DNA of 64,000 bases from contig NZ_JAKGTQ010000002.1 of the NCBI RefSeq assembly GCF_021568285.1, forward strand, positions 186,001 through 250,000, written 5' to 3'. This document shows, in pieces, positions 2,537 to 51,916 of the stretch. Below the pieces are notes generated by a model that did no database searches, was not told the origin of the DNA, and saw only the letters and a list, made by a program, of their open reading frames with translations. How positions within the stretch are numbered: the first letter of the stretch is position 1; the number at the start of each line of letters is the position of its first letter. This stretch comes from Rheinheimera sp. UJ63 (GTDB taxonomy: Bacteria; Pseudomonadota; Gammaproteobacteria; Enterobacterales; Alteromonadaceae). Both the position numbers and the translations under genes were made by a program.

Positions 2537-2973
2537 TGAACATACCCGTTTGGTTAGTCTGGCCGTTGTTAGGCCTAGTCATAGTCAGTGTGTTGCTAAT
2601 GGCCTTATGGCTGCGTAAGCGTTTGGCACAAGTTGAGCGTAAAGTCAGTTTACTGAGTGCTCAGCTTGAGAGCAGCCAGCAACATGCGGCCACAGCGCAG
2701 GCTGAGCTAGAAGAGCTGCGCTCAGGAGTAATCGGTGTTGGCCAGCGAGTACTCAATTTACAAGAGTCGCAACAGCGCTTAAAAAACCAATTAGCTGAGC
2801 TACACGAACAGCATCAAGTGATTGCGCTAAGCGATCCTGAGAGTAAAATTTATAGCCGAGCGATGAAGATGGTAGAGCTGGGCGCGGATCTCGAAGAAAT
2901 TATCCGTGAATGTGAATTACCACGCGCTGAAGCTGAATTACTGGTCAATTTGCATCAACAAAAACAAGGTTAA
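2536..2973 (+). CDS. DUF2802 family membrane-anchored coiled-coil protein
   Basis: About 145 aa. The ATG at 2536 overlaps the cheW TGA, and a TTG one codon upstream (2533) is an alternative. One N-terminal membrane helix (PVWLVWPLLGLVIVSVLLMA) is followed by a coiled coil rich in Gln/Glu/Leu (~30-95). The compact C-terminal segment AMKMVELGADLEEIIRECELPRAEAELLV is typical of DUF2802, a family found after cheW in polar flagellates. The function is unknown. The C-terminal part resembles a small helix-turn-helix. Its position suggests a role linked to motility or chemotaxis arrays. Confidence 0.8.
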   Translation: MNIPVWLVWPLLGLVIVSVLLMALWLRKRLAQVERKVSLLSAQLESSQQHAATAQAELEELRSGVIGVGQRVLNLQESQQRLKNQLAELHEQHQVIALSDPESKIYSRAMKMVELGADLEEIIRECELPRAEAELLVNLHQQKQG

Positions 2974-2990
2974 GCCAAGCAGAGGTCGCT

Positions 2991-3296
2991 ATGAGTGATC
3001 AGCCAGAGCAAAGCGCTACCGCGCTTAAATATGACGGTGCCGGCGCGCCCATTATTATTGCCAAAGGGCATGGCCAGTTAGCGGCAGATATTATTGCCCT
3101 AGCGCGTGAGCACGGTGTATTAATACATGAAGATGCCGAGTTATCTCGGCTGTTAAGCCAATTACAATTAGGCGATCAGATCCCTAAGGCCTTGTATCTG
3201 ATTATCGCCGAGTTAATTGCCTTCTCCTATGTACTGCAGGGTAAGTTTCCTGAAAACTGGCATAACATTCACCAGCGTATTGACCTAAAAGCCTAA
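2991..3296 (+). CDS. Solitary FlhB C-terminal-domain protein (FhlB/EscU-C like)
   Basis: 101 aa, matching only the cytoplasmic export-switch domain of FlhB: ALKYDGAGAPIIIAKGHG, AREHGVLIHEDAELSRLL, GDQIPKALYLIIAELIAFSYVL. The four membrane helices of FlhB are absent, and so is the NPTH autocleavage motif that should precede the ALKYDG segment. Such stand-alone FlhB-C paralogues occur in flagellar loci and can partly substitute for the cleaved FlhB C-domain. It starts 17 nt after the DUF2802 gene and closes the operon. The homology is clear; its exact function is open. Confidence 0.82.
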   Translation: MSDQPEQSATALKYDGAGAPIIIAKGHGQLAADIIALAREHGVLIHEDAELSRLLSQLQLGDQIPKALYLIIAELIAFSYVLQGKFPENWHNIHQRIDLKA

Positions 3297-3328
3297 GCTC
3301 CTAAGCTGCATGTTCTTTGTAGCTAAGG

Positions 3329-3925
3329 CTATTCAGCCGTTTCTGGTTTTTGCCATACCAGCGCTTTAAAGTGCTGACGACACATCGAAACATAGCTTTC
3401 ATTACCGCCAATTTGTACTTGCGAGCCCGCTGTCGCAGCCTGGCCATGTTCATCTAAGCGCACCACGAAATTCGCTTTGCGGCCACAATGACAAATGGTT
3501 TTTAATTCAATCAATTTATCCGCCCAGGCTAAAAGTGCCTGACTTCCAGCAAAGGTTTCCCCCAAGAAATCAGTACGTAAGCCAAAGGCCAACACCGGCA
3601 CATTTAGCTCATCTACTACGTCGGTGAGTTGCCGTACCTGTGTTTTTGATAAAAATTGCGCTTCATCAATCAACACACAATCTAAACGGCCTGCGGCTTT
3701 TTGTTGTTGCAGTGTAGTGAAAAAGTCGAATTGGTGATCAAAAATGTGCGCATCCATGGCCAAACCAATGCGCGAACTGACTTTACCTAAACCAAAGCGA
3801 TTATCTAAAGCGGCGGTAAAAATGGCCACCGTCATGCCGCGCTCTTGATAGTTATAGGCACTTTGTAGCAAAGAAGTGGATTTACCGGCATTCATTGCCG
3901 AATAATAAAAATACAATTGAGCCAT
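3329..3925 (-). CDS. tdk: Thymidine kinase (type II)
   Basis: 198 aa. It phosphorylates thymidine and deoxyuridine to the monophosphate in the pyrimidine salvage pathway. The P-loop SAMNAGKST lies at residues ~9-17 and the DEAQFL Walker B/catalytic-Glu motif at ~87-92. A zinc-binding lasso with a CHCG knuckle and a distal C-x2-H follows. The substrate-contact segment near [10 protein letters not shown] is typical of bacterial and viral type II kinases. It is convergent with the chemotaxis operon, with 32 nt between stops. Full-length and ordinary. Confidence 0.95.
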
Positions 3926-4060
3926 TACGTTACCCTAAAAATGCTGACGGCGCAGTATAGCAACTTACCGCAGAAAATCAGCTAGCTGCGCTTTGTGACT
4001 AGCAGAATTTTCTTGCCTGCTGCGGCTGAAATTGACCGGCAGCAGGGCGTTGGTATGGTG

Positions 4061-6127
4061 TTAATGATCCGCAGTTTTAACCCTTTCTTGGGGTTTTTCT
4101 GTGCGCTTAACGGCGCTGTCATCTGATTTTTTATTGTTTTGTGTTGGTTTAGCGGGTTGCACTATCGGAAAGAATAAATTCAACGGGTTTTGCTTGATTT
4201 GATCGATCACACTTTTTAGTAATAACGAAAACTTACCAATTTGCGTGCCGCGGGCGCGCAGTGCCACGGTTAGGGCGAGAGTAAAGCTCACCCACAAATT
4301 AACAAAACCAATTAATAGCACCATCACTAGATAAAACAAAAAGCCGAAGAGGCCCAAATCGCCATCGACTGTGCTGTAGCCTAAATTGGCTGAAGCAAAG
4401 GCGACATGCCGAATATCCAGCGGTAAATCAAGCAAGTAGCCTAAGTAGCTGGTCATGCCCAATAACACACCAAAAAAGAAATTACCGGCCAAGGCGCCAT
4501 AGTTTTCATGCCAATATTCGGCAAAAGCTTTACGCGCGCGCTGCGGTAACAGCCTTTTCAGTAAGGGGTGTTGGTATAGCCGTAAATTTAACTCAAGGTA
4601 ATTGGCGCGGTTTTCAAAAAAACCGGCAATAATGCCCGAGCAGAATAACCAAACCCCCGCAATAGCCGCAAAAAACAGTGAGCCATGCCAAGGCGAGATG
4701 GCATCTAACTGATAAGACACCGCCGCAGCATCTAAAATGGGGCGATCTTGCCAATACCAAAAGCTCAAGGCAATAATTGAAGCGGTTATCACGGCAATAC
4801 TGACGTTACCCCATACTGCAGCCCACTGCGACCGATTTACGTCAATCAGTAGGGTTGCCAGTTTTTTATGGGCTGCCCGGCCGTTTTCACCTTTTTCAAC
4901 TTCAGCGGCAAAACTGGCCGCAGTCATGGCTGGCTGCTTGGTGGCGACAGTCAGGCCTAACATATGAATGAGCACAAAACCTAAGCCATAATTTAAACTG
5001 GCCAGCGCAGCGGTAGAGAAAGGGGATAACCCCAGCGCTTGGATATGAATTTTAATCAGTGCCATCACGGCAATAATCACGCCTGCACCTGCGGCTGAGG
5101 CCACTAAACCAAAAAATTGGCTTTTATCGCGGGTGATGTAATGTTCACCATGACTGCTTTTGTTCACGCTGATGCTTTTCGATAACAGCTGAGTACTACT
5201 GCGCCAGAGCGCACGCACGCTTTTTTTCTCGCGGCTGGTATACAGTAACTGCTCGGTTAACTCTAAAGTATGCCGGTGCAGCTCGGCGCGATCCTGACCG
5301 GTGATCAATATCACTAATTGTTCTATCCGGCTTAGCGTTTGCTCTAAGCGTTCTAACAGATGAGACACGGCCACCGTGCTGCCTGCTGCTGCTGCACGGC
5401 GTCTTAAGCGGTCTATTTGCTCATAGCATTGCTCAACCATCACGATGTAATGTGCACAGTCGTAGAGCGGTAATTCCACATCCGGTTGTTTTTGCCGATA
5501 ATGACCCACTAACATATTCAGTTCACGATGCAGCGCAATAAATGCGGAATCAATGTTGTTGAGCCGCTTATCCAAGCGCATCAAATCCGGTTCCATCTCT
5601 TCTGCAGCGATCCAGACACTGAGCATTTCCAGTGCGCACAAGGCATCTTCATGCATGTGCTCTTCAAATGCCGTTAGCTTTTCTTTGCTAACTACGCTCA
5701 GAAAAAAGCAGCTGAACTCAGTAAACAAGCCAGGGCCATCAACATGCTCTTCATCATCAATAACAATGTTTTTAAAGACTTCGGCCAGCACATCTTTTAA
5801 TTCGCTCAGATCGCGCGGTGCTGGGTTCACTTTTTCATAGAGACGGCTTGATAATTCGCGAAAAAAACCGCGACGCGAAAATACGCCAAGGCTGACTAAT
5901 GCCGGGTAGATATGCACACTGCACAGCCAACTGAACAAGTTATTGGCAATCATTTCGCTTTCAGCGAGATTTTGTTGCAGTGTTTCTAATAATTTTTTAG
6001 CGCGTTTTTTACGCTCAAAGCTAAAGCGTGACTCGTTTACCCAACCCACTAATTGTTTTAGCAGGGGTAATCCTTCTTTTTCAGCGGCCAAAGCGCGAAC
6101 GAGCATCAGCGCATTTAATTTATCCAT
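4061..6127 (-). CDS. Gcr-type (SpecificRecomb) polytopic membrane protein
   Basis: About 688 aa. I chose the ATG at 6127 because GAGG lies 5 nt upstream; a GTG two codons earlier lacks this spacing. The N-terminal ~330 residues are soluble and helix-rich. The C-terminal half has about six hydrophobic segments (SAAGAGVIIAVMALI, YGLGFVLIHMLGLTV, FAAIAGVWLFCSGIIAGFF and others), with a basic tail. It matches proteins annotated as site-specific recombinase Gcr after a Neisseria gene, but I see no tyrosine- or serine-recombinase motif. The recombinase label is doubtful and it is better viewed as a membrane protein of unknown function. Confidence 0.7.
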   Translation of the reverse strand: MDKLNALMLVRALAAEKEGLPLLKQLVGWVNESRFSFERKKRAKKLLETLQQNLAESEMIANNLFSWLCSVHIYPALVSLGVFSRRGFFRELSSRLYEKVNPAPRDLSELKDVLAEVFKNIVIDDEEHVDGPGLFTEFSCFFLSVVSKEKLTAFEEHMHEDALCALEMLSVWIAAEEMEPDLMRLDKRLNNIDSAFIALHRELNMLVGHYRQKQPDVELPLYDCAHYIVMVEQCYEQIDRLRRRAAAAGSTVAVSHLLERLEQTLSRIEQLVILITGQDRAELHRHTLELTEQLLYTSREKKSVRALWRSSTQLLSKSISVNKSSHGEHYITRDKSQFFGLVASAAGAGVIIAVMALIKIHIQALGLSPFSTAALASLNYGLGFVLIHMLGLTVATKQPAMTAASFAAEVEKGENGRAAHKKLATLLIDVNRSQWAAVWGNVSIAVITASIIALSFWYWQDRPILDAAAVSYQLDAISPWHGSLFFAAIAGVWLFCSGIIAGFFENRANYLELNLRLYQHPLLKRLLPQRARKAFAEYWHENYGALAGNFFFGVLLGMTSYLGYLLDLPLDIRHVAFASANLGYSTVDGDLGLFGFLFYLVMVLLIGFVNLWVSFTLALTVALRARGTQIGKFSLLLKSVIDQIKQNPLNLFFPIVQPAKPTQNNKKSDDSAVKRTEKPQERVKTADH

Positions 6128-10779: not shown

Positions 10780-11619
10780 TTATTCTCCAACCAGTTGAGT
10801 AATACTAAAGCGGCTGGCCGCTTCACCGATCTGTTGTTGCACTTCGTTTAACGCCGCTTGCATGTCCTCGGCTAAGGTGTAAGGCGGGTTAATCACTAAC
10901 ATACCACTGCCCGTCATGCCATGCCCCTGGCTATCGGCATGTAAATTAAACTCAATACGTAACTGATTTTTAATGCCAGTAGCAACAAGGCTATTGATAA
11001 AGGCTTCAACCGCGCTGCGTTCAATGACCGGGTACCAAATAGCATAGGTCGCTTGCGGAAAGCGTTTATAGGCTTCTTGTAAGCCTGTAACCAAGTCTTG
11101 ATATTCAGTTTTTAACTCATAAGGCGGGTCTATTAACACTAAACCGCGTTTGACCAAGGGCGGCAGCATGGCTTTAAAGCCGGCATAAGCATCGGTATTT
11201 TCAATACGCGTATAACGGCGGCGCACAAATTGGCTTTTTAGCACCGGAAAGTCGGTAGGATGCAGTTCAGTGGCTTGAATATGATCGTCATTGCGCAGCA
11301 TTAACGCGGCAATTTTGGGTGAGCCTGGATAAAAGTTAAGCTCGCCATCTGGGTTGAGCTGTTTTACTAATGCAATATAGCGCTGTAACAACGGGCTTTG
11401 TGCTGGATAATGCCAAAGTTTAGCAATACCGCCTTGGTACTCTGCGGTTTTTAGTGCGTGTTCGCTTTGCAAGCTATACAGGCCCGCACCGGCATGCGTA
11501 TCGTGATAGCACAGCGGTTTATCTTTTTTTAGTAGGTAGTCTAAGATGGCTACCTCGGTAAGATGTTTTACCACATCGGCGTGATTACCCGCATGGTAGC
11601 TGTGACGATAACTGAGCAT
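10780..11619 (-). CDS. rlmJ: 23S rRNA (adenine(2030)-N6)-methyltransferase RlmJ
   Basis: 279 aa, the family's usual length. The N-terminus MLSYRHSYHAGNHADVVKH is diagnostic. DTHAGAGLY forms the SAM-binding loop and LIDPPYE (~162-168) is the N6-adenine methyltransferase DPPY motif. In E. coli RlmJ modifies A2030 of 23S rRNA. It starts 212 nt upstream of the yfiF remnant, reading away from it, and leads directly into the S1/P1 nuclease gene. Confidence 0.95.
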   Translation of the reverse strand: MLSYRHSYHAGNHADVVKHLTEVAILDYLLKKDKPLCYHDTHAGAGLYSLQSEHALKTAEYQGGIAKLWHYPAQSPLLQRYIALVKQLNPDGELNFYPGSPKIAALMLRNDDHIQATELHPTDFPVLKSQFVRRRYTRIENTDAYAGFKAMLPPLVKRGLVLIDPPYELKTEYQDLVTGLQEAYKRFPQATYAIWYPVIERSAVEAFINSLVATGIKNQLRIEFNLHADSQGHGMTGSGMLVINPPYTLAEDMQAALNEVQQQIGEAASRFSITQLVGE

Positions 11620-11831
11620 AAAAAAGAGCCTTGCGTTGCCATTTAAGGCGCCAAGGATACTGCGTTAGCCTAAAAAAACAAGTGTTAAAACCATGGCACT
11701 AATAGCAATCGCTTTGCAGTAGACCCACGCGGACTCGGTGCAAGAAAAAACCAAGTATTGTCGGCGCCTAACTGGTAAAATCTGCGGTATACAGCAAGTG
11801 ATAGCAAAATGCTAAAGAAACGGGAATGGGT

Positions 11832-12298
11832 ATGTCACAACAACGGCCAAAAGGCGGCAAAGCAGCGGATCCGTTGCAAAAGCCATGGATGAAAAACGCG
11901 AAATCAGCAGCAAATAAAGCAAAACGTCCGGTAGCCGCATCAAAACCGCTAACCGCTAAGCCGATGAAAACCGTGTTGGATAACGAAGGTTAAATCTACG
12001 GAGAGAATGCCTGTCGGGTGATGTTTCAACAACGGCCAGAGGCAGTGATCCGTTTGTATTTGTCGGCGCAGTTGGCACCAAAGTTCGCTGATGTAATGAA
12101 GTATTTAGCCGCAGCGAAAAAAGCCTACCATATTGTTGATGATGCCGAGCTTGAAAAAGTAGCCGGCAGTGGCCATCACGGTGGCATAGTGCTGCTGGTA
12201 AAACGTAAAGCGCAGCAAAAACTTGCTGACTATTTACAACAGAAAGGCCGCAAGCAAGATTGTTTGCTGGCGTTAGATGGTGTGGGTAATCCGCATAA
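11832..12298 (+). pseudogene. yfiF: Broken yfiF (SpoU/TrmH-type RNA methyltransferase) remnant
   Basis: The first 467 bases of a yfiF-like gene are present, in the same frame and with no net insertion or deletion against the intact copy at 16543. The frame starts MSQQRPKGGKAADPLQKPW and meets TAA at codon 54 (11991-11993), where the intact copy has Lys (AAA). After it the coding sequence resumes as IYGENACRVMFQQRPE. Homology stops abruptly after ...DGVGNPH at about 12298, and the remaining frame runs into unrelated sequence to a stop at 12351-12353. The whole catalytic SPOUT domain is missing. A shorter protein could start inside (12018) but would be non-catalytic. Confidence 0.85.
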
Positions 12299-12558
12299 AA
12301 GAGGTAACACGATCTCTGACTTTTTCAACAATACTGTAGCCCCTGTTTTATAAAGCTTGTAAGCCTTCTTTCAACGCAATTCAATTCGCGTTTCTGATCC
12401 ATTAAACCCATCTCTGAAAGCAACAATTGCCGTGATTTCGGCCTAGCAATCAGGTTTAAACTGTCCCGAATACCTACTTTCACTGTGGTGTTAAGACAGA
12501 AAGCAAATTACTATCTAAAAAAACAACTAAGATTCATGCATTAAGGGAAGTACAGGCT
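12299..12558. other. AT-rich junction between yfiF remnant and island genes
   Basis: No gene is supported in this 260-bp stretch. It holds the abrupt end of yfiF homology and the motif CACGATCTCT (12308-12317), which recurs inverted at 16400-16409. A short minus-strand open frame (about 50 codons, ending near 12329) has no recognisable domain and could be a decayed mobile-element end. A GGGAAG about 8 nt before the KAP gene can serve as its ribosome-binding site. Confidence 0.5.
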
Positions 12559-14004
12559 ATGGCTGCATTAAGCTGCAAATACGAAAAGTGGCTGACAAAG
12601 TATACGTTTGAAAACTGTAAGCTTGATCGTGGCGAGTACGGCGAATTCCTTAAAAATTACCTGGCCGGTGAGCATGATGGTTTTGTCCTCAACTTAAATG
12701 GTGCTTGGGGTACAGGAAAAACCGAGTTCTTAAGGCGGTTATATTCTTTATTTATCACAGAAGGCCATCCAACCATATATATTGATGCTTGGGAAAGTGA
12801 TTTTTCCGAAATGCCGTTATCTGTCGTATCAAGTGAACTTTTGAACCAGCTTTCTGCGATTAACGAAGATATTGGTACTGAACTTAGTAAAGTCGGAGAA
12901 TTTTTAGGTAAGGCCGTTAAGGGGGCCATTATCGGCGGTGCAGGTCTTTTATCTAAGCATTTACTAGCTGACGCAAGCGCAGGTAGTGAAATGGCTAAGG
13001 CTCTGTTCGAAAAGTCACCAAACGACTTTCTTGATAGCGTGAAAAAAGAACATGCTGAACAGATTGAAGCAATAAAAAGCATTCGTACAGAACTGGGAAA
13101 TCTTGCTGAAGTTATTCAGAAAAATTACAGCAAACGGTTACCAGTTTTTGTTTTAGTCGATGAATTAGATCGGTGCCGCCCAAGCTATGCAATTGAAATG
13201 CTGGAAGTTATTAAGCACTTTTTCACAACAAAACATTTTGTTTTTGTAGTCGCAACTGACACTAAGCAACTCCGTGAGTCTATAAAATCCGTATATGGTT
13301 CCTCATTCGACTCGACGACTTACTTGAAACGATTTTTTAATAGAGAAGCAAGGCTGGATGAACCAAAATTAGAGAAGTACATAGGACTTTCAAAAGTTAG
13401 TAACAATGAATATGGTTCAAGAGTGATACTTTATCCTGAAATTAGTAACTTAGGGCGCCAAAGCACAACTAAATACTTAGAATGGTTGTCAGTTGCATTC
13501 GATCTAAGCTTAAGAGACATAGATCAATTAATAAATAAATTAAACGCCTGCTTACGTACAGCGATTCATGCCTATGATCTAAGTCAAAAAGTTCAGCTAA
13601 TTAATGTTTTTTCATTAATAACTGCGTTAATTGAGTTCGATAAGGAGCATTCTCAGTTTATTGAAAGAAAAACCAGCAACCCTATGATTTCCGGTGTGTT
13701 TACAAATACGGATTTCACTTTAAACGGTGAATTAGTCAGTCTCTCAGAGATCTATAAAATCAATATGATTTGTTCTGTCATGCATGAAGAAACTGTGGAT
13801 AGTCATCATGGTGAGCAGTATAAGGAGCTTTATTTTGGAGTTAGGCAGTTAAGAAGCTCAGACTACAGTAATGATTTTACTTTAAGGACTATCATAGCGA
13901 ATATAAGCAATGTACTTTCACACCATCATAAAAAAACAACCAGCAAAATATGGTTATGGCATGATTATCAGAGAGTAGTGAGGCTTGCAGGCATGATTGA
14001 GTAA
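12559..14004 (+). CDS. KAP-family P-loop NTPase (candidate defence ATPase)
   Basis: 481 aa. Walker A GAWGTGKTE lies at ~48-56 and Walker B VFVLVDELD at ~195-203, followed by RCRPSYAIEMLEVIKHFF, the hallmark of KAP NTPases. Between them is a Gly/Ala-rich hydrophobic insert (~115-140, AVKGAIIGGAGLLSKHLL), matching the membrane-segment insertion seen in many KAP proteins. ATDTKQLRESI fits the sensor region. Some KAP proteins, such as F-plasmid PifA, exclude phage, and others occur in defence loci. Codon use is clearly more AT-rich than in its neighbours. It converges with the SEC-C gene, with 38 nt between stops and a weak GAGTAAT/ATTACTC hairpin at the end. The role is inferred. Confidence 0.85.
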   Translation: MAALSCKYEKWLTKYTFENCKLDRGEYGEFLKNYLAGEHDGFVLNLNGAWGTGKTEFLRRLYSLFITEGHPTIYIDAWESDFSEMPLSVVSSELLNQLSAINEDIGTELSKVGEFLGKAVKGAIIGGAGLLSKHLLADASAGSEMAKALFEKSPNDFLDSVKKEHAEQIEAIKSIRTELGNLAEVIQKNYSKRLPVFVLVDELDRCRPSYAIEMLEVIKHFFTTKHFVFVVATDTKQLRESIKSVYGSSFDSTTYLKRFFNREARLDEPKLEKYIGLSKVSNNEYGSRVILYPEISNLGRQSTTKYLEWLSVAFDLSLRDIDQLINKLNACLRTAIHAYDLSQKVQLINVFSLITALIEFDKEHSQFIERKTSNPMISGVFTNTDFTLNGELVSLSEIYKINMICSVMHEETVDSHHGEQYKELYFGVRQLRSSDYSNDFTLRTIIANISNVLSHHHKKTTSKIWLWHDYQRVVRLAGMIE

Positions 14005-14042
14005 TGCACAAATTACTCATAAAACCATTTAAAATAATTAGA

Positions 14043-16241
14043 TTATACGATGCAGCAATGTTTATGCTTTTTGCCACTTCCGCATGGACAAGGTGCATTT
14101 CGACCAATCTTTTTTCCGCCACTTCTCATAGATTGTTTTGGGGATGATCTAGGAGTTGGAGTTATAGAATGCAGAGGTTTTAGGTCGGCCACCAACTTGT
14201 CCATTTCACTAGATTGTTCCCACTCTGATTCATGATAAGACGCAAATCTCAATCTGCCGTGTGCTGGGCTAAGACAACATCCGACCCAATAATTGGCTTT
14301 GCAGATATATTTCCGCTTCTCGCAATGGACTATTAACCTTTTATACGCAGTTTCATGATCGTCCTCGCTGCAGTGAATGGTCAGGCCTGATTTAACGTCA
14401 AATAGTGGGAGTGTTATATCATGGTGGCGATAATCTTTTTTAAATTGTTCAATAAGTTTTGCGATTGCCGAGTTAAGTAAATCAATACTTTTGCCACACA
14501 TTGATAAAAGATGAAACCCAAGTTTTTGAAGCGCATAATCTGATGAATTCTCTATATCCTCTATGATACCGCTGACATAGGTATTCTTATGAGCAGTTAG
14601 AAATCCCTCAGGAGTTTTTGTTCCATCAAATCCATCTCTTCTCGCAAGCATTGCTAATTCTAGGGCGCCAGAGATATCGTCTCCAAGCATAACCATATTG
14701 GGATTTTCGTCAAAATATAGGTTTTGTAAGATATATGTTGAAAGGGTCACTAGCTCATGGTTTGAAACTATTGAATCACCGAAATCACTGCGCTTGGTCA
14801 TGTAGTCTAGAAACCGTAAGGGTGATTGCAACATTTCTGAAATCATATCCAACAAAAAAACATCCATAACGTAAGGGTGTTTTATGGTGTTAGTAACTTT
14901 ATAGTCAAGAAAGTGGCTTGCTTGAGCGGCAAGAGCTGGAAAGTGGTCTGATACAAGGCAGATAGGAAATATTGCTTTAAAATCAGTTCCTATAGATTCT
15001 ATAGCTGTACCCGATGAGTCTTTTAGCGTTAACCCTCCACTAATTAGCGCCTCGCTACATATAAGCGATTGGTCGTACGCATCTTGGATCGCCAATTTAA
15101 AGTCTTTTTTAAGTTGTGAACTGTTTCCTTTACGTGCTTCAATTGTTAGCTTTTTAGATTTTGCTTGGACAACGATTGCATAAGCTCCGAATGTGACCAG
15201 TACATCAATCTCACCAATTTTATTTTTTCCATCAAATAGATCGATGTTGGATAAAACATTTTTCTCCCCAAACACTAATGCTAAACGTTCTTTAGCGAAT
15301 TCTTCAGTAAAGACACCTCGATGGCTGCTGGCTATTACATTGTATTTCTTGTCTGCTCCAAACCAGAAAAATGGGCTTTCATAAAGGCTTTCCCATAAGC
15401 TATATGACTGGAAGCTCAAATATTTGTCTGTGTCTATTTTAATTAAAGGAAAAGCATTTCTATGATTAAAATCATCGACACTGTTAAAACAATCCATACC
15501 CTCTTCTGGTTGAGCAGAAAAAGCATCAATTACGGCAGTGACAATCTTTAGGTCGAGGCCGCTCTGTTTAGTAATTTCAGACGGTTCAAACATAAAAACG
15601 GGCAGATGGTAGGGCAATGGCCAACTTCGAGATTCAGATACTGCATGATTTACTTTTTGTAGTTGAATTTGGTCTATTGCATTTATCACAGTTGCAGCTT
15701 GAATTATGCTAAAACCTTTGTTCGTTTGTAGCCAATTATCATCATACGAATAACGTCGCTTTGCTAAATCTCTATATTGGTGTTTATAGGCTCCATCACC
15801 GCCATAAAAAATAGCCTCTCGCATAAAAGCATTATGCTCATTGCTGTGGATAAAGTCAGAAAAAATCTTATTTGAAAAGGTTGCTCTCTCATCTTCTTGT
15901 TTAACTTTTGCTACCAAACTTGAAAAGTCTAACGTTGTGTAAAATGAATTATGCAGTTCGTCAAGAAGGTGCCATAAATCTTCTGCTCTGCATTTCAATT
16001 CATCGAAACTTAATTGAGTTGCCTTAAAGCCATGTTTACACGCTAAGCCAACTAGAGTTGAAAGTTCAGTTCGGGATAGCCTAGTGCGATCAAATTGCCC
16101 AGAAAACGCTTTTTCATCTAGTTTGTCACCGGAAAAGTGAATAAATGTATCTTTCCAGCAGAAGAAGGCAATTATTTCCCAAAAACCATCTTGTCTACTT
16201 AACTCTTCAAGTGCTTCAAATATCTGCTGTTCTGTTCTCAT
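14043..16241 (-). CDS. Large PD-(D/E)XK-like nuclease candidate with C-terminal SEC-C zinc motif
   Basis: 732 aa, not assignable to a named family by eye. A central segment reads GEIDVLVTFGAYAIVVQAKSK (~343-363). An Asp (D346) followed 13 residues later by Q359-x-K361, with an upstream Glu pair in FTEEFAKERL (~313), fits the restriction-endonuclease-like PD-(D/E)XK fold. The last 20 residues hold a SEC-C zinc motif (C718, C720, C729, C730 within CPCGSGKKHKHCC). The N-terminal 300 and the 450-700 regions are unrecognised and soluble. It is AT-rich like the KAP gene and converges with it. Nuclease activity is inferred from the motif only. Confidence 0.75.
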   Translation of the reverse strand: MRTEQQIFEALEELSRQDGFWEIIAFFCWKDTFIHFSGDKLDEKAFSGQFDRTRLSRTELSTLVGLACKHGFKATQLSFDELKCRAEDLWHLLDELHNSFYTTLDFSSLVAKVKQEDERATFSNKIFSDFIHSNEHNAFMREAIFYGGDGAYKHQYRDLAKRRYSYDDNWLQTNKGFSIIQAATVINAIDQIQLQKVNHAVSESRSWPLPYHLPVFMFEPSEITKQSGLDLKIVTAVIDAFSAQPEEGMDCFNSVDDFNHRNAFPLIKIDTDKYLSFQSYSLWESLYESPFFWFGADKKYNVIASSHRGVFTEEFAKERLALVFGEKNVLSNIDLFDGKNKIGEIDVLVTFGAYAIVVQAKSKKLTIEARKGNSSQLKKDFKLAIQDAYDQSLICSEALISGGLTLKDSSGTAIESIGTDFKAIFPICLVSDHFPALAAQASHFLDYKVTNTIKHPYVMDVFLLDMISEMLQSPLRFLDYMTKRSDFGDSIVSNHELVTLSTYILQNLYFDENPNMVMLGDDISGALELAMLARRDGFDGTKTPEGFLTAHKNTYVSGIIEDIENSSDYALQKLGFHLLSMCGKSIDLLNSAIAKLIEQFKKDYRHHDITLPLFDVKSGLTIHCSEDDHETAYKRLIVHCEKRKYICKANYWVGCCLSPAHGRLRFASYHESEWEQSSEMDKLVADLKPLHSITPTPRSSPKQSMRSGGKKIGRNAPCPCGSGKKHKHCCIV

Positions 16242-16542
16242 ATTTTTAATTTACAGCCTTGAATATTAAGAGATAGGAAAGTGGCGTTATATAGCAACTG
16301 GATGCTAGTTTCCAGCACGATATAGAACATTAACCTAAAAAGCTCCTATTTCAAAATTCAGCTCTAGGTCGATGTTATCAGTAGCTGAGGTTGGTCTTTA
16401 GAGATCGTGCTTTAATCTGCTATTGGCCATTGGTGTGATGAAGTAGGGTTGCCAGTTGCAAAACAGAAGTATTGTTGCCGCGCAGCTGCTAAAATTCGCC
16501 GCATTAATGATTGCAGGCCATAAGGCTAATACAGGAACACCA
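16242..16542. other. Right island junction and yfiF upstream region
   Basis: No gene is supported here. AGAGATCGTG at 16400-16409 is the inverse of the motif at 12308-12317. From about 16467 the sequence resembles the region upstream of the broken yfiF copy (AAGTATTGT followed by GC-rich sequence and TAAAAT), so the promoter region was duplicated along with the gene. A TTG at 16456 keeps the yfiF frame open, but its product would lack a conserved N-terminus. Confidence 0.55.
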
Positions 16543-17415
16543 ATGTCTCAACACCGTCCGAATAAAAACAAAGCCGCTAATCCATTACACAAGCCGTGGA
16601 ACAAAACCGATAAGGCTGCCGCTGGTAAGCCTAACCGCAATACTGCAACTGCAAAAGCACAGGCGGCGAAATCGGTGAAGTCAGTGCAGGGCGATGAGAG
16701 CAAAGTTTATAGCCCAAACGCTTGCCGTGTACTGTTTCAACAGCGGCCTGAATCGGTAATACGGTTGTATGTATCAGAGAAAGTAGCACCGAAATTTTCG
16801 GACGTAATGAAGTATCTGGCGGCGTCTAAAAAAGCGTACCACATAGTGGAAGATACTGAATTAGAGAAAATCGCTGCCAGCCAGCATCATGGCGGCATTG
16901 TGATGCTGGTAAAAAATAAGCCTATCCAATCCATTGCCAGTTATTTACAACAAAATAGGCTTAAGAAGGACTGCTTACTCGCTTTAGACGGAATAGGAAA
17001 TTCGCATAATTTAGGCGCCATTACCCGCAGCTGTGCCCATTTTGGCGTGGGCGGCATTATTATGAAGCAGCCTGAGTTATTACAATCGGGCGCGGCGCTA
17101 CGCACCGCTGAAGGCGGCGGTGAATTTGTGGATGGTTTAAGTTGCGACAATCTGCCACTGGCGCTGAAGCTTTGTAAAGAGGCGGGTTATACGCTTATTA
17201 CAACCTCTAGCCATGGCGGAAGCTCGTTATATAACACGCCATTACCGGCCAAAGTGGTGATTGTGTTTGGTGAAGAAATGTTTGGTGTATCGCAACATGT
17301 CGCGAAAAACGCCGATATCGCGCTGCAAATACCCGGCACCGGTAAAGTGGAATCGCTTAATGTGAGCGTGGCAGCGAGCTTAATTCTGGGTGAGTGGTAT
17401 CGGCAACAAAGTTAG
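16543..17415 (+). CDS. yfiF: YfiF-like SPOUT (TrmH/SpoU) RNA methyltransferase, intact copy
   Basis: 290 aa from the ATG at 16543, with AGGA 5 nt upstream. It has a Lys/Ala-rich basic N-terminus (~1-50) and a substrate-binding L30e-like domain (YSPNACRVLFQQRPE to ~135). The SPOUT catalytic domain follows with DGIGNSHNLGAITRSCAHFG (motif 1), VIVFGEEMFGV (motif 2) and IPGTGKVESLNVSVAASLILGEW (motif 3, knot). These match E. coli YfiF, a putative tRNA/rRNA 2'-O-methyltransferase whose target I do not know. It is a divergent second copy of the remnant at 11832 and probably restores the lost function. Confidence 0.9.
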   Translation: MSQHRPNKNKAANPLHKPWNKTDKAAAGKPNRNTATAKAQAAKSVKSVQGDESKVYSPNACRVLFQQRPESVIRLYVSEKVAPKFSDVMKYLAASKKAYHIVEDTELEKIAASQHHGGIVMLVKNKPIQSIASYLQQNRLKKDCLLALDGIGNSHNLGAITRSCAHFGVGGIIMKQPELLQSGAALRTAEGGGEFVDGLSCDNLPLALKLCKEAGYTLITTSSHGGSSLYNTPLPAKVVIVFGEEMFGVSQHVAKNADIALQIPGTGKVESLNVSVAASLILGEWYRQQS

Positions 17416-17470
17416 GGCGCGTTGTAGTATGGGTAACAGCGACGATTATTAGCGTCGCTGCTGTTCATCG

Positions 17471-17740
17471 TTAAGGGGTATTTGCCAGTGAGCTTAGTGC
17501 TTTGGATAAGGTTGAGCCAACATAACTGAAGCGCGGGCTCAGTTCGCCAGCAATATCAACGTTTTCACTAAACATGGTGGCAGGGCGAGCCCACAGGCCA
17601 AAATCGCCGTACAGCGCACGATAGATCACCAGCCATTCGGCGGTTTCGCTATGCATAGCCAAGTCAACAACTTGGTAATAACGCCCTTTGTAGTGTTGAT
17701 AATAGCCTTGTGGCAAATCAGGCTTAGTGTTGTTGTTCAT
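17471..17740 (-). CDS. DUF1653 domain protein
   Basis: 89 aa from the ATG at 17740, with GAGGG 5 nt upstream; a TTG four codons earlier is less likely. The small beta-rich domain has [21 protein letters not shown], then [22 protein letters not shown], the DUF1653 pattern. The function is unknown. It overlaps the 3' end of ruvX by 17 nt, suggesting the last place in the rsmE-gshB-yqgE-ruvX transcript. Confidence 0.85.
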
Positions 17741-18143
17741 GCCAGCCCTCAAAAATAATTTGTGCCGATAGGCTGTCTACTTTGTCTTTACTCAGATTAC
17801 GATAACCGCCTTCTGCAAATAGTCTACTGCGCGCATCTGCGGTGGATAAACGCTCATCATGTAGCGCGACGGCTAAACCAAAACGGCCATGGAGGCGGTT
17901 GGCGAATTTACGTGTTCGCACGGTAAAGTCTTGCTCAGTACCGTCCATATTAAGCGGTAAACCGACTAACAATAACTGCGGTTGCCAGTCTTTTATTAAG
18001 CGCTCAATCTGCTCCCATTCCGGAATGCCATCACGCGCTTTTAAAGCAGGCAGTAAGGTAGCACTGCCGGTTAATTCTGAACCGACAGCGACCCCGATAC
18101 TTTTGGTGCCATAATCAAAACATAAAATGGTGCGATGTTGCAT
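17724..18143 (-). CDS. ruvX: RuvX/YqgF, RNase H-fold putative Holliday junction resolvase / pre-16S rRNA nuclease
   Basis: 139 aa from the ATG that overlaps the yqgE TAA (TAATG); the family is usually ~138 aa, so longer starts are rejected. [13 protein letters not shown] carries the first catalytic Asp (~10). [23 protein letters not shown] (Glu) and [12 protein letters not shown] (Asp) complete the YqgF active site. The protein is implicated in 16S rRNA 5'-end processing and was first proposed to resolve Holliday junctions. Translation is likely coupled to yqgE. Confidence 0.95.
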
Positions 18144-39514: not shown

Positions 39515-40288
39515 GTGACCTTACCCACTCTACTGTTTATTTGCACCGAGAACTCGGCGCGTTCTATTTTAGCGGAAGGCTTAGCTCGGCATAAATATGC
39601 GGATCGTTTTACAGCATACAGTGCTGGTAGTGCGCCTGCTGTTGCCGATCCTCGCGCTTTGAGTACTTTAGCCGCTCAGGGTATCAGTACCGAGGGTTTG
39701 TACGCCAAACCCCTCAGTAAATATCGGCATATCAATTTTGATTATGCGATTGTGCTATGCAATAAAACAACGGCAGAGTGCGCCAACGAAATCACCGCTA
39801 AGCATTTATTGGCTTGGGATTTTAGCGATCCAAAGCAAAGCTCTGATTCTCATGCTTTTGAAACCACACTTCATCAATTAGCAGAGCGCTTAAGTATGTT
39901 TGTGCTGCTATACGATCGACAGCATCAGCACAAACCCTTAACCCCACTGAGTTTTTTTAAATTACTGGCCGATGAAACCCGGCTAAATGCGTTGTTATTA
40001 ATTATGGCCGAGCAAGAATTATGTGTTTGCGAGCTCACTACCGCCTTACAAGATACCCAGCCCAAAATTTCACGCCACTTGGCAATGCTGCGAAAAACCG
40101 CGGTGCTGCTCGACCGTCGTCAGGGGCAGTGGGTGTATTACCGTCTAAATCCAACCTTAGCGCCGTGGGCGCAAGCTTGCCTTGAGCAGACGGCGATCGC
40201 GCAGCAACCCTTTCTCGCGCCGTTACAAGCGAATCTTGCGGCTATGGGCGATCGTCCAACGCGTGACAGTCAATGTTGTCGTGAATAA
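39515..40288 (+). CDS. arsR: Fusion of thioredoxin-type arsenate reductase (ArsC) and ArsR repressor
   Basis: 257 aa from GTG. Residues 1-135 form a low-molecular-weight phosphatase-fold ArsC: the P-loop C10-TENSAR, the general-acid region DFSDP (D105), and redox Cys at 82 and 89 give the complete C10/C82/C89 set of S. aureus-type ArsC. Residues ~145-240 are an ArsR winged helix with ELCVCEL (C170, C172) as the As(III) site and TQPKISRHLAML as the recognition helix. The third Cys of R773 ArsR is Thr here, but CC occurs at 254-255. It heads the gap-arsJ operon. Both activities are inferred from intact motifs. Confidence 0.9.
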   Translation: MTLPTLLFICTENSARSILAEGLARHKYADRFTAYSAGSAPAVADPRALSTLAAQGISTEGLYAKPLSKYRHINFDYAIVLCNKTTAECANEITAKHLLAWDFSDPKQSSDSHAFETTLHQLAERLSMFVLLYDRQHQHKPLTPLSFFKLLADETRLNALLLIMAEQELCVCELTTALQDTQPKISRHLAMLRKTAVLLDRRQGQWVYYRLNPTLAPWAQACLEQTAIAQQPFLAPLQANLAAMGDRPTRDSQCCRE

Positions 40289-40407
40289 CGAGGCACTGCA
40301 TAAAGTCACCACAGAGTTTTAAGCGCTTGGCATTGTGGCTGGCAAAAGTTTAAAAACGGCCGCAACAGTCGAAACTGAATAATGTTAATGAAAAACAGGA
40401 CAGCATA

Positions 40408-41412
40408 ATGACAATTAAAGTAGGAATTAACGGTTTTGGCCGCATCGGCCGCTTAGCACTGCGCGCAGCCTTTGACTGGCCTGAGTTTGAATTTGTGCAA
40501 ATTAACGATCCGGCGGCCGATGCAGCCACCTTTGCGCACTTAATTAACTTTGATTCGGTACATGGCCGTTGGCAACATGAGGCCACGGCCAATGACGATG
40601 CCATGATAATCAAAGGGCAGCACATCAAGGTAACCGCCAATAAAGCCATTGCTGACACGGATTGGTCGGGCTGTGATGTCGTAATCGACGCCTCGGGTAA
40701 AATGAAAAGCAAGGCGCTGCTGCAAGCCTATTTAGATCAAGGGGTAAAACGGGTCGTGGTTAGCGCGCCTGTTAAAGAAGCCGGTGTGTTAAATGTGGTG
40801 ATGGGGGTTAATCAGCAGTTGTTTGATCCCTCAATTCATCAGATTGTCACGGCGGCAAGTTGTACAACTAACTGTTTAGCGCCAGTGGTAAAAGTGATCC
40901 ACGAAAAATTAGGCATTAAACACGGTGCCATCACCACTATTCATGATTTAACCAATACCCAATCTATTTTAGATACGCCGCACAAAGACTTACGCCGCGC
41001 GCGGGCTTGTGGCAGCAGTTTAATACCCACGACTACCGGCTCGGCCACGGCGATTACCGAAATTTTCCCTGAGCTAAAAGGCCGTTTAAACGGGCATGCC
41101 GTGCGTGTGCCACTGGCCAATGCGTCACTCACAGACTGTGTATTTGAAGTAGAACGTGCCACCACAGCAGAAGAAGTCAATGCGCTACTTAAAGCCGCGG
41201 CAGAAGGCGAGTTGGCCGGTATTTTAGGCTATGAAACGCGGCCTTTAGTGTCCGTAGATTACAAAACCGATCCGCGCTCGAGCATTATTGATGCGCTTTC
41301 CACCATGGTGGTAAACGGTACCCAAGTAAAAATTTATGCGTGGTATGACAACGAGTGGGGCTATGCCAATCGCACCGTTGAGTTAGCCAAATTAGTTGGC
41401 TTGGCCAAATAA
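40408..41412 (+). CDS. gap: ArsJ-associated glyceraldehyde-3-phosphate dehydrogenase
   Basis: 334 aa. NAD-binding [17 protein letters not shown] and the active-site Cys in [15 protein letters not shown] are both present. [24 protein letters not shown] follows; the TNTQ variant is typical of GAPDHs paired with ArsJ. In this pathway GAPDH uses arsenate in place of phosphate, making 1-arseno-3-phosphoglycerate. The gene lies between the ArsC-ArsR fusion and arsJ, separate from the glycolytic epd/pgk/fba block at 26-29 kb. Confidence 0.93.
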
Positions 41413-41435
41413 GCCATTTTGCAGCAGAGAGCAGC

Positions 41436-42626
41436 ATGAACGCAGATGTACGGCAATATTTAATCGTAACCGGTAATTACTGGGCCTTTACTTTAACCGA
41501 TGGGGCGCTGCGCATGCTAATTGTGCTGCACTTTTATCAGCTAGGTTACAGCCCACTGGCCATCGCCTCATTATTTGTGTTCTATGAGTTTTTTGGCATT
41601 GTCACCAATTTAGTGGGGGGCTGGCTAGGTGCGCGTTTGGGGTTAAACAAAACCATGAATCTGGGGTTATTGCTGCAAATTGTCGCACTTAGCATGTTAT
41701 TGCTCCCCACGGCACAGCTTACCGTGGTGTGGGTGATGGCGGCGCAGGCCTTGTCAGGTATTGCCAAAGATCTGAATAAAATGAGCGCAAAAAGTGCCAT
41801 AAAGTTGCTGTTACCCGATGAAGCGCAAGGCGCGTTATACAAGTGGGTGGCCCTGTTAACCGGCTCTAAAAATGCCCTTAAAGGCGTGGGGTTCTTTTTA
41901 GGCGGGGTGTTATTAGCCTGGTTAGGTTTTCAAGGCGCGATGGCGGCGATGGCAGGCAGTTTGTTGCTGGTATGGGTATTAAGTTTAGTCTTGCTGAAAC
42001 AGGATCTTGGCAAAAAAAGCTTTAAACCGAAATTTACAGAGCTGCTGTCTAAAAGTGCCAGTTTAAATTGGTTATCGGCGGCACGTTTTTGTTTATTTGC
42101 GTCGCGCGATGTATGGTTTGTGATTGCGTTGCCGTTGTATTTGGCGAGTATTGCCGGTTGGTCACAAAGTGCAGTGGGGGCGTTTTTAGCCAGTTGGGTT
42201 ATTGCCTATGGCATAGTGCAAGCGTTTACCCCTAAGCTTACCCGCAGTAATAAGCAAGCGCCGCCAACGGCCAGTACAGCACTTAATTGGGTACTGCTGT
42301 TAGCCTTGTTGCCTTGGTTAATAGGTGTCGCCATGCTGTATAGCGCTCAGCCGTTACTCGCGCTGTTGTGTGGTTTATTGCTTTACTGTGTGTTTTTTGC
42401 CATTAACTCGAGCTTACATAGCTACTTAATTGTTGCCAGTGCTAATCGTGATGGCGTGTCGCTGGATGTAGGCTTTTATTATATGGCCAATGCCGCCGGG
42501 CGTTTAGCTGGAACCTTACTATCAGGCTGGGCATACCAAAGTTATGGGTTAGTGGCGTGTTTGTGGTTATCCGGTTTGCTGTTACTCGGGGCGGTGTTGT
42601 GTACTTGGCGATTAAAACTTCAATAA
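41436..42626 (+). CDS. arsJ: ArsJ, organoarsenical (1-arseno-3-phosphoglycerate) efflux permease
   Basis: 396 aa major-facilitator transporter with about 12 membrane segments. YLIVTGNYWAFTLTDGALRMLIVLHF and LFVFYEFFGIVTNLVGGWLGAR are ArsJ signatures, as are GIAKDLNKMSAKSAIKLL and VSLDVGFYYMANAAGRLAGTL. ArsJ exports 1-arseno-3-phosphoglycerate, which then breaks down outside, giving arsenate resistance without arsenite efflux. It starts 23 nt after gap. No acr3 or arsB is present in the window. Confidence 0.94.
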   Translation: MNADVRQYLIVTGNYWAFTLTDGALRMLIVLHFYQLGYSPLAIASLFVFYEFFGIVTNLVGGWLGARLGLNKTMNLGLLLQIVALSMLLLPTAQLTVVWVMAAQALSGIAKDLNKMSAKSAIKLLLPDEAQGALYKWVALLTGSKNALKGVGFFLGGVLLAWLGFQGAMAAMAGSLLLVWVLSLVLLKQDLGKKSFKPKFTELLSKSASLNWLSAARFCLFASRDVWFVIALPLYLASIAGWSQSAVGAFLASWVIAYGIVQAFTPKLTRSNKQAPPTASTALNWVLLLALLPWLIGVAMLYSAQPLLALLCGLLLYCVFFAINSSLHSYLIVASANRDGVSLDVGFYYMANAAGRLAGTLLSGWAYQSYGLVACLWLSGLLLLGAVLCTWRLKLQ

Positions 42627-50376: not shown

Positions 50377-50940
50377 ATGAAAACACTAAACCCACTTTCA
50401 AAAAGCTTACTAACCATCACAACTACCGCTAGCTTATTACTCATGCCCATTGTCAGTTATGCTGCTGTTGATATGTTTTTAGAAATTGACGGTATTGTTG
50501 GTGAAAGTTATGACAAAGATAACCGTGGCGCGATGGATATTTTGGCTTGGTCAGAAGGTTTATCGCAATCTGGATCTTTTCAAACTGGCGGTGGCGGTGC
50601 AGGTAAAGCCAATTTTCAAGATATTAATTTTACTAAGTGGCTAGACAGTGCCAGCCCAGCGCTCAGGTTATCCGTGGCGAATGGGCAACATATTCCAACG
50701 GCGACTTTAACGGTTAGGCGAGCCGGCGCGAACCCGTCGCAATATTTTAAAATAGAAATGAAAAATATCATTGTTACCTCGGTATCGTCAGGTGGAAGTG
50801 GTGGTGACGATCGGCTGACTGAAAATATTACATTGAATTTCGCTGAGGTTACTTGGACATACTATCCTATTGATGAAGGTGGAAATCCGAAACCACCCAT
50901 TTCAGTTGGTTGGAATATCGCTGAGAATAAACAGTTATAA
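50377..50940 (+). CDS. Sec-exported Hcp-fold (T6SS tube-like) protein
   Basis: 187 aa. The N-terminus (KTLNPLSKSLLTITTTASLLLMPIVSYA, read in parts) is a typical signal peptide ending SYA before AVDMFLEIDG. From ~32 on it is a complete Hcp1 domain: MFLEIDGIVGES, ILAWSEGLSQSGSF, GGGGAGKANFQDINFTKWLD, SGGSGGDDRLTENITLNFAEV, GWNIAENK. Hcp normally builds the type VI secretion tube and has no signal peptide. No T6SS genes are near. The export signal suggests a periplasmic or surface role, alone or as tubes. The fold call is firm; the role is unknown. Confidence 0.88.
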   Translation: MKTLNPLSKSLLTITTTASLLLMPIVSYAAVDMFLEIDGIVGESYDKDNRGAMDILAWSEGLSQSGSFQTGGGGAGKANFQDINFTKWLDSASPALRLSVANGQHIPTATLTVRRAGANPSQYFKIEMKNIIVTSVSSGGSGGDDRLTENITLNFAEVTWTYYPIDEGGNPKPPISVGWNIAENKQL

Positions 50941-50975
50941 CCTGTCAGTAACCCCAATTATGAGGAGTTAATCAC

Positions 50976-51881
50976 ATGAGGTTATTGATAAAAAGCATAC
51001 ATAGCCTTTCATGGTTATTAGTAGGATTGTTAGTTGCTTTTTCAGGTTTTGCGGTGTCTGAAGTTATTAATGATCATATTATTATTGATGATAAAAATTT
51101 TACTTTAGTCAGTTCGCGAAGAGTAACCCGTACTGTTAGCGAATATAAATTACGTGTGCTGGCACAAAATGTCTCTGCTGTCGATTTGAGCAATGTAAAA
51201 GCCAGTTTAATCTCTGCACCTACAAGCATCTCAATCATTCAAGGTAACTTGGCATTTGGCGCTATTCCGGCTAATAGCAGCGTTTTAAGTTCTAATGACT
51301 TTACCATTCAAATTAATTTACGCGAAGCTTATAACTTAGCGGATCTTGTTTGGAAAATTGATGGAGATTTACCACCGCCCCCTCCACCGCCGTCCACCAG
51401 CCCAACAGCAGTGGGCATCTTTATGAAGATTGATGGGCCTGCCATTAAAGGTGAGGTGGAAAGTTCAAGCCACAAAGATTGGATCCAAGTATTAGCCTGG
51501 AGTGAGGGGTCAAGTAACTCCGGTACTACCCATGTCGGCGGAGGGGCAGGCGCCGGCTCGTTTATGCTTGGTAATGTTAACGTCACCAAATACATAGATA
51601 CCGCAAGTAATCCGCTCAGATTAGCGATTGCAAAAGGCGAGCTTTTTGAAGAAGTGCAAATCGATGTTATTAAGCAATGTGGCACGAGTTTGTATACGCA
51701 ATATGCCATTACGTTAAGTAACGTTATGGTGGTCGGGCTAAGCAGTGGTGGCAGTGGTGGAGAAGATCGTTTAACCGAAAATGTTGCTTTTAATACCGCG
51801 ATGATTCAAACGATGTATACCCCAGTAGGCGATAAATGTCGTTTTCAGCAACCCATTTATTCCATTCAGTCTTATAACTGA
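50976..51881 (+). CDS. Exported two-domain protein: unknown beta domain plus Hcp-fold domain
   Basis: 301 aa. A signal peptide or anchor (~8-27, SLSWLLVGLLVAFSGFA) precedes an unrecognised beta-rich domain (~30-130). A run of seven prolines (~133-139) forms a linker. An Hcp domain (~147-290) follows, with IFMKIDGPAIKGEV, VLAWSEGSSNSGTTHVGGGAGAG, VNVTKYIDTAS and SSGGSGGEDRLTENVAFN. It has two Cys (~235, ~287) that could form a disulfide. GAGGAG is 8 nt before the ATG, and the gene is 35 nt after the first Hcp gene. It may extend or cap the partner encoded upstream; this is inference. Confidence 0.82.
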   Translation: MRLLIKSIHSLSWLLVGLLVAFSGFAVSEVINDHIIIDDKNFTLVSSRRVTRTVSEYKLRVLAQNVSAVDLSNVKASLISAPTSISIIQGNLAFGAIPANSSVLSSNDFTIQINLREAYNLADLVWKIDGDLPPPPPPPSTSPTAVGIFMKIDGPAIKGEVESSSHKDWIQVLAWSEGSSNSGTTHVGGGAGAGSFMLGNVNVTKYIDTASNPLRLAIAKGELFEEVQIDVIKQCGTSLYTQYAITLSNVMVVGLSSGGSGGEDRLTENVAFNTAMIQTMYTPVGDKCRFQQPIYSIQSYN

Positions 51882-51916
51882 TTGAAGCGTAATGTATAAA
51901 TTTTGGAAGAAAAAGT

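Follow-up and report, generated by a model that had tools for sequence, protein, structure and literature searches.

Does the sharing of one genomic site by two putative defense genes make them one defense system? This question is raised by a small insertion in the genome of Rheinheimera sp. UJ63, located in the 64,000-nucleotide stretch of contig NZ_JAKGTQ010000002.1 that was analyzed as a whole and is referred to here as the window. The insertion lies between a gene that we take to be rlmJ and the RNA methyltransferase gene yfiF, and carries two convergent genes with 38 bases between their open reading frames (ORFs). One encodes a KAP-family P-loop ATPase (hereafter KAP) and the other a 732-residue protein with a NERD-type core and a SEC-C tail, predicted to be a nuclease and referred to as such below. 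A preliminary description of this DNA had proposed the pair as a two-gene defense module, adding that either gene may also work alone. Our analysis points to the second option: the insertion probably holds two independent single-gene anti-phage candidates that share a site, and not one system. The module is unsupported because the two families rarely co-occur, the genes converge, and each family has a prophage site of its own. More generally, two genes sharing a defense site need not form one system.

Separate distribution of the KAP and nuclease families

Among 105 other nuclease loci, a clear KAP relative was found only on a plasmid of Vibrio europaeus (L041), and a weak KAP match in one more locus (L082) proved to be PifA. 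Three further Vibrio nuclease loci have no KAP gene within ~ 6 kb. Seen from the other side, the nuclease occurs in the flank of none of 79 viral and none of 12 other KAP loci (7 of these 12 having only ~ 1–1.5 kb of flank), which together with L041 makes 1 of 92. The viral loci were retained from 322 confirmed IMG/VR matches obtained with an alignment as query; the KAP protein as lone query had given no match in that database. On plasmids, 28 records carry KAP and 36 carry the nuclease, and among the 30 nuclease matches listed the shared record is that of V. europaeus. At the level of genomes, a KAP match at an E value of 1e-25 is present in 1 of 79 nuclease-bearing genomes vs 7 of 368 genomes of the class besides the window's own, and none of these seven is among the four other nuclease-bearing genomes of the class. 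The excess of co-occurrence by which the preliminary description had proposed to check the module is not seen, and the module is rejected on its rarity on plasmids, in loci, and in genomes.

The two families also differ in their prophage sites. In loci L131 and L134, the nuclease lies between a Phage_GPA gene and a phrog_68 portal gene, and in L130 it adjoins a relative of the phrog_68 portal. This position in P2-like prophages is the gpA–gpQ locus, which sections of PMC9122126 describe as a hotspot of anti-phage systems, occupied in P2 itself by old and tin. Sections of the same source (PMC9122126) place a second anti-phage hotspot between cI and the integrase gene of K139-like phages, and the position of KAP, which precedes int in P2-like prophages, resembles this one. 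With the gene beside the V. furnissii KAP copy as the integrase query, KAP was found 3–465 bases upstream of an integrase relative in 27 of the 79 viral loci; a gpA relative is present as well in 23 of these 27, and a CI-type gene lies upstream in 10. Four further viral KAP loci have the integrase match on the other side or overlapping. Separate prophage sites and rare co-occurrence together favor the suggestion that either gene may work alone.

A true two-gene system, in which the KAP ATPase would sense infection and license the NERD nuclease, could account for the short distance between the genes of the window and for the convergent pair of the same layout in V. europaeus. It could likewise accommodate the PifA gene of L082, which encodes a larger KAP protein 149 bases upstream of the nuclease on the same strand (PifA profile 1.2e-199). 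We nonetheless regard such a system as quite improbable: these two nuclease loci are the only ones with a partner of this kind, the other Vibrio loci and the genome counts offer no hint of a pair, and the prophage sites differ. Because the genes converge, they belong to no shared operon and would require separate promoters.

Several points weigh against two independent genes. The V. europaeus plasmid repeats the convergent layout at 36% identity for the nuclease and 32% for KAP, an arrangement that chance would seldom give (an estimate, not a computed value); this pair may reflect a loose KAP–nuclease partnership. A long nuclease ORF is present in 104 loci, 68 of which extend for 2 kb or more to either side of it. 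In the genome comparison, the nuclease carriers come from many phyla and the reference genomes from the window's own class, so that taxonomy is unmatched. In addition, the 79 viral KAP loci are not collapsed to distinct phages, and in 48 of them neither the integrase nor the CI query found a relative.

The NERD/SEC-C protein and its surroundings

Profile searches place a NERD domain (PF08378) at residues 309–398 of the 732-residue protein (1.3e-5, 26.1 bits vs a cut-off of 22.1). The terminal SEC-C motif (PF02810), already noticed in the preliminary description, is matched above cut-off at residues 714–730 (5.4e-8, 33 bits vs 20.4). In an alignment of 81 sequences, the D346/K361 pair that had been singled out as nuclease-like is invariant together with E313 and Q359, and the SEC-C cysteines C718, C720, and C729 are kept at 90% or more. 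The AlphaFold model is confident, with a predicted local distance difference test score (pLDDT) of 89.1 and a predicted template modeling score of 0.88. It consists of a helical N-terminus, a NERD-type core at ~ 301–430, a helical and alpha/beta C-terminal part, and the SEC-C tail. Within the core, a helix (301–324) is followed by three strands (329–337, 340–351, and 354–361) and a second helix (374–401), and these elements form a PD-(D/E)XK core whose helix and strands carry the four invariant residues. The nuclease core expected around residues 340–365 is thus present in the model, and the combination of the core fold with the (E/Q)xK set makes the prediction of a PD-(D/E)XK nuclease a sound one.

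Relatives of this protein are carried by prophages, plasmids, and genomic islands, and their spread is wide and patchy. In a single pattern-limited scan that took one genome from each species, 208 relatives were confirmed, of which 80 loci were kept; the record titles name Pseudomonadota, Bacteroidota, Cyanobacteria, Acidobacteria, Planctomycetota, Nitrospinae, and others. Of the 36 plasmid records with relatives, 28 cover at least 80% of the protein and 19 are from Agrobacterium, and 13 IMG/VR contigs also carry the gene. Closer to the window, relatives occur in 5 of 369 genomes of the class (the window's own included; two are weak) and in 4 of 196 genomes of the genus Vibrio. Seven of 5426 E. 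coli genomes hold copies that are 99.5–99.6% identical to a Providencia gene.

Several neighborhoods of the nuclease contain genes of known or candidate defense systems. Relatives lie beside MkoA/MkoB of Mokosh (L042) and PifA (L082), have PDC-S39 and PDC-S02 among their neighbors (L038), and, on a viral contig (L125), have a gene for an Mrr_cat protein as neighbor. In L037, a type I restriction locus is found ~ 3 kb away and in L044 an AbiEii-type gene ~ 5.6 kb away; the E. coli copy belongs to an island linked to guaA, which also contains HigA, PIN, and DUF262 genes. Pfam searches on 89 nearest neighbors returned at least four AAA_15 proteins and at least one each of HamA, Cap4_nuclease, S_4TM, HipA_C, and KAP_NTPase; the families listed (25 of 105) also hold many housekeeping families. 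No evident defense neighbor is among the genes listed for L039, L040, and several chromosomal nuclease loci.

For loci L045–L124, we compared the genes nearest to the nuclease with genes at least 6 kb away, applying PADLOC to 89 of 127 near and 89 of 95 far genes. Each set is a random sample of 90 less one entry, the two omitted being L064:1489–2298, a piece of a nuclease gene, and L052:20159–21100; the PADLOC results cover the 25 families listed per set and give no total of matching members. Neighbor genes were called as longest ORFs, and some calls are spurious. Because the far genes include defense proteins too, we claim a location in defense regions and no excess right beside the nuclease. 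The association with defense genes expected in the preliminary description holds for each family singly, and the near/far comparison does not show an enrichment immediately next to the nuclease.

No conserved partner emerged either when 2441 ORFs within 8 kb of the nuclease were clustered, as no cluster was present in more than six loci. Inspected by eye, most of the larger clusters comprise spurious ORFs or genes for housekeeping functions, regulators, integrases, or transposases. The neighbor table excludes L044, and in L133 the nuclease is in pieces with no ORF above 400 residues. An unannotated protein of ~ 400 residues converges on the nuclease across a gap of 13–14 bases in three loci (L039 10161–11357, L066 12162–13427, and L069 5814–7010), and might be a recurrent partner. 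For the single copy searched, that of L066, neither Pfam (at 0.01) nor PADLOC (at 1e-5) gave a match. In Providencia, the nuclease is followed on the same strand by a 795-residue protein with a SEC-C motif of its own (L096 12462–14849). In E. coli, a gene annotated as YecA family takes the place of this protein (L176 14513–16849).

We read the 732-residue protein as a probable stand-alone anti-phage nuclease because its catalytic set is invariant, its spread is patchy, its carriage is mobile, and its relatives are placed in defense regions. Such a protein would be held inactive until infection, with its helical N-terminus and its C-terminal part sensing an infection cue or keeping the nuclease inactive. 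On infection, the NERD core may then cut DNA, and the zinc-type SEC-C tail could dock a protein, the ribosome, or nucleic acid. A gene of mobile elements without anti-phage function, serving competition between plasmids or prophages, DNA uptake, or upkeep of the element, is a less likely identity, which we consider rather unlikely. Copies on plasmids, in prophages, and in an integrated island with conjugation genes would suit that role, and a NERD core by itself does not imply defense. The placement in the gpA–gpQ hotspot and the adjoining Mokosh, PifA, HamA, Cap4, and restriction genes argue against it, and genes for transfer or replication do not recur as conserved neighbors of the nuclease.

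A defensive role also has to be set against a search of 50,697 phage records that gave no match to the nuclease and against the near/far comparison itself, in which genes at least 6 kb away likewise include defense-type proteins and which has no random-gene control. Furthermore, some loci appear to be near-copies as judged by their gaps (L003/L053, L077/L078, L128/L129, and perhaps L130/L131). Tentatively, at just short of even chances, we propose that the NERD/SEC-C protein founds a widespread single-protein anti-phage system, as yet undescribed, across several phyla. It would perhaps be distantly related in structure to Upx, a protein discussed below, would use its SEC-C tail in activation, and would have spread via P2-like prophages, plasmids, and islands. 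If true, a common one-gene nuclease would be added to the defense catalogue.

The KAP protein and the insertion site

The KAP protein was correctly recognized as a P-loop NTPase in the preliminary description. It matches KAP_NTPase (PF07693) at 1.5e-37 with 129.9 bits vs a cut-off of 20, and displays a Walker A motif (GAWGTGKT, residues 48–55) and a Walker B region (VLVDELDRC, 198–206). In an alignment of 52 KAP sequences, W50, G51, G53, K54, and D201–C206 are invariant. Its AlphaFold model has a pLDDT of 86.7, and a profile search against PDB sequences gave no match at 0.01. The membrane-type insert ascribed to this protein was not found: by hydropathy alone, no membrane segment is seen, and the best 19-residue Kyte-Doolittle mean is 1.17 (residues 119–137). 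Among viral KAP relatives, 3 of 76 reach 1.6 on this scale in residues 80–230. The closest PADLOC profile is PDC-S20 (PDLC04959; 2.9e-80), a PADLOC candidate defense family, which is matched over nearly the full length (protein 15–453, profile 14–441 of 464).

We favor a KAP protein working alone because its Walker motifs are conserved, its fold matches RdrA, and its relatives adjoin int in prophages. It would be a soluble AAA+-like ATPase of the PDC-S20 type, possibly forming a ring-type assembly and serving as an ATP-driven sensor or effector.

Positions, lengths (481 and 732 residues), convergence, and AT-richness of the two genes were reproduced by ORF and guanine-cytosine (GC) measurement (Table 1). 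GC content is 0.375 for the KAP gene and 0.383 for the nuclease gene vs 0.47–0.48 for the measured neighbors, and GC at third codon positions is 0.34 and 0.31, respectively. As described earlier, the ORFs of the insertion include no transposase.

Table 1. Window positions of the two genes and of the edges of the insertion
Feature	Position	Strand	Evidence
KAP-family P-loop ATPase, 481 aa	12559..14004	+	Pfam, PADLOC PDC-S20, AlphaFold, fold match
NERD/SEC-C protein, 732 aa	14043..16241	-	Pfam, 81-sequence alignment, AlphaFold, fold matches
rlmJ-type gene, conserved left neighbor	10780..11619	-	near yfiF in 28 of 30 genus stretches
Broken 5' half of yfiF-type (PRK10864) RNA methyltransferase gene and upstream region	11751..12311	+	alignment to intact copy
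Intact divergent yfiF-type RNA methyltransferase gene, right edge of insertion	16456..17415	+	PRK10864 7.6e-105, above cut-off

The rlmJ–yfiF site was compared in 30 fetched genomes of the genus. The gap is at most 220 bases in 19 of them, 527 bases in one, and 1.1–5.8 kb in eight; rlmJ falls outside the fetched stretch in two. The nearly closed site of these 19 genomes bears out the small insertion in a housekeeping locus. Neither gene is present in the 30 site stretches. Across the genus (31 genomes), the nuclease is confined to the window's own genome and a KAP match occurs in two, the second copy lying far from its genome's yfiF. As both genes sit in a housekeeping locus, one could suspect that they serve the host in ordinary DNA repair or housekeeping. 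We hold this to be extremely improbable, since the patchy distribution contradicts it and the genes are AT-rich at a mostly closed site. In another species of the genus (L144), a lone Abi_2 gene occupies the rlmJ–yfiF site (2951–4316; 2.5e-57; GC 0.39). Among the ORFs of the other occupied sites, none appears defense-like by eye, no database search having been made.

The two copies of yfiF offer a clue to the origin of the insertion. The broken left copy shares 59% protein identity with residues 4–189 of the intact one and contains four in-frame stops; an ORF at 12018–12353 matches PRK10864 at 4.5e-36. DNA homology of the copies stops near 12299–12306, and a 45-nucleotide stretch upstream of each is alike at 71%. 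The 5' part of the intact copy has its closest DNA in L140, L139, and L138, the broken copy in L149, and the flanking genes in L150. As these nearest relatives differ, neither copy tracks the flanks, and in DNA comparison the intact copy is not clearly chimeric. Judging from these sequences, the KAP and nuclease genes probably arrived together with a foreign yfiF copy and broke the resident yfiF, now a relic, which we infer as the simplest account of the broken and intact pair. Such a pair resembles incoming DNA that brings a replacement for the gene it breaks. Apart from the yfiF duplication, repeats in 11620–17420 are short matches only. Promoter and terminator scans around the insertion gave no more hits than shuffled sequence, and Rfam gave no match at gathering score in 11000–18000.

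Elsewhere in the window, two regions caught the eye. As read by eye, an AT-richer stretch at 50377–52468 appears to encode two adjacent secreted proteins with signal peptides and Hcp-type domain repeats; the protein encoded next has a PEP-CTERM-like tail. At 39515–42626, likewise read by eye, an apparent fusion of an ArsC-type phosphatase with an ArsR-type regulator precedes GAPDH and MFS genes, resembling an arsenic gapdh-arsJ operon.

Comparison with known defense systems

The best solved match of the 732-residue model is Upx (9wuf), with a VIA-align Z of 12.8 over 406 aligned residues (model residues 3–569) at a root-mean-square deviation (rmsd) of 4.4; Foldseek gives an E value of 7.6e-6 and a template modeling score of 0.35 on the query. 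Upx is said to have been named and described as a single-protein anti-phage system by Gao et al. 2020. Its chain is longer (1212 vs 732 residues), identity is 10%, and the SEC-C tail is a feature of the 732-residue protein. The kinship is also called into question by the Z value, which lies below ~ 13, where mostly helical models may share only a common arrangement. A sequence-profile match of the nuclease to 9wuf is absent at an E value of 10. No Upx row appears among the PADLOC matches of the 732-residue protein and ten homologues, the presence of a Upx model in PADLOC 2.0.0 not having been checked. Because the Z value is borderline and sequence profiles make no link, we treat this kinship as a lead.

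In the fold ranking, Upx is followed by the BspD6I nickase (Z 10.8, 172 aligned, rmsd 4.0) and then by FokI, Can2, Cdn1, and others; a family missing from the VIA-align or Foldseek list is not thereby excluded. The CRISPR ancillary nucleases Can2, Cdn1, and Card1 (Z ~ 7.5–9.5, ~ 125–140 residues aligned) have the PD-(D/E)XK core in common with the model, and Shedu SduA reaches 6.8. Since the N-terminal part of the model is mostly helical, a CARF-type sensor appears unlikely. A BFVD fold search returned no match at an E value of 0.001.

NERD domains are reported in Mokosh type I and Nhi-like systems in sections of PMC10952713, and sections of PMC12458937 describe a rare YprA-linked NERD system. 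The 732-residue protein shares the Pfam NERD domain with Mokosh type I and Nhi-like proteins. It differs in that the insertion holds no helicase or PLD partner, and MkoA and MkoB are separate genes beside the homologue of L042. Neither protein of the window matches the MkoA or MkoB profile at an E value of 1 in PADLOC. A gene group labeled 'NERD domain-containing', which may be the present family, features with integrases in a phage-linked Vibrio gene cluster in PMC12409351. The main text of PMC9519451 and of PMC13092281 makes no mention of KAP, NERD, or SEC-C, and the phrase 'SEC-C metal-binding domain' returned nothing in the open-licence literature. PADLOC 2.0.0 detects the nuclease family chiefly via the zinc tail or the nuclease core.

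Several named systems were considered for the KAP protein. PifA shares the KAP P-loop domain, and the preliminary description had drawn a kinship with it. The PifA profile matches in part only (1.8e-11; KAP residues 37–259, profile 36–246 of 720), unlike the full-strength match in L082, and PDC-S20 is closer; identity with PifA is rejected. According to sections of PMC11846954, Tmn is a KAP-family protein with two transmembrane domains that blocks several phages by an unexplored mechanism. As two such domains were not found by hydropathy, identity with Tmn was discarded as well. QatABCD was set aside with 47.1 bits for the QatA equivalog vs a cut-off of 600.

The best fold match of KAP is RdrA of RADAR (Z 17.9, 339 aligned, rmsd 5.6). 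RdrA entries take ranks 1–7 with Z values of 15.1–17.9, whereas other AAA+ proteins reach at most 12.9. The RdrA chain is longer (835 vs 481 residues) and identity is 13%. Membership in RADAR is rejected, as only the RdrA fold is shared and the sole other gene of the insertion encodes the NERD/SEC-C protein and no RdrB adenosine deaminase. A full-text search of the open-licence literature returned no paper naming PDC-S20. The two genes of the insertion thus relate differently to what is catalogued: the NERD/SEC-C family is unnamed in the libraries and literature searched, and KAP belongs to the already listed candidate family PDC-S20.

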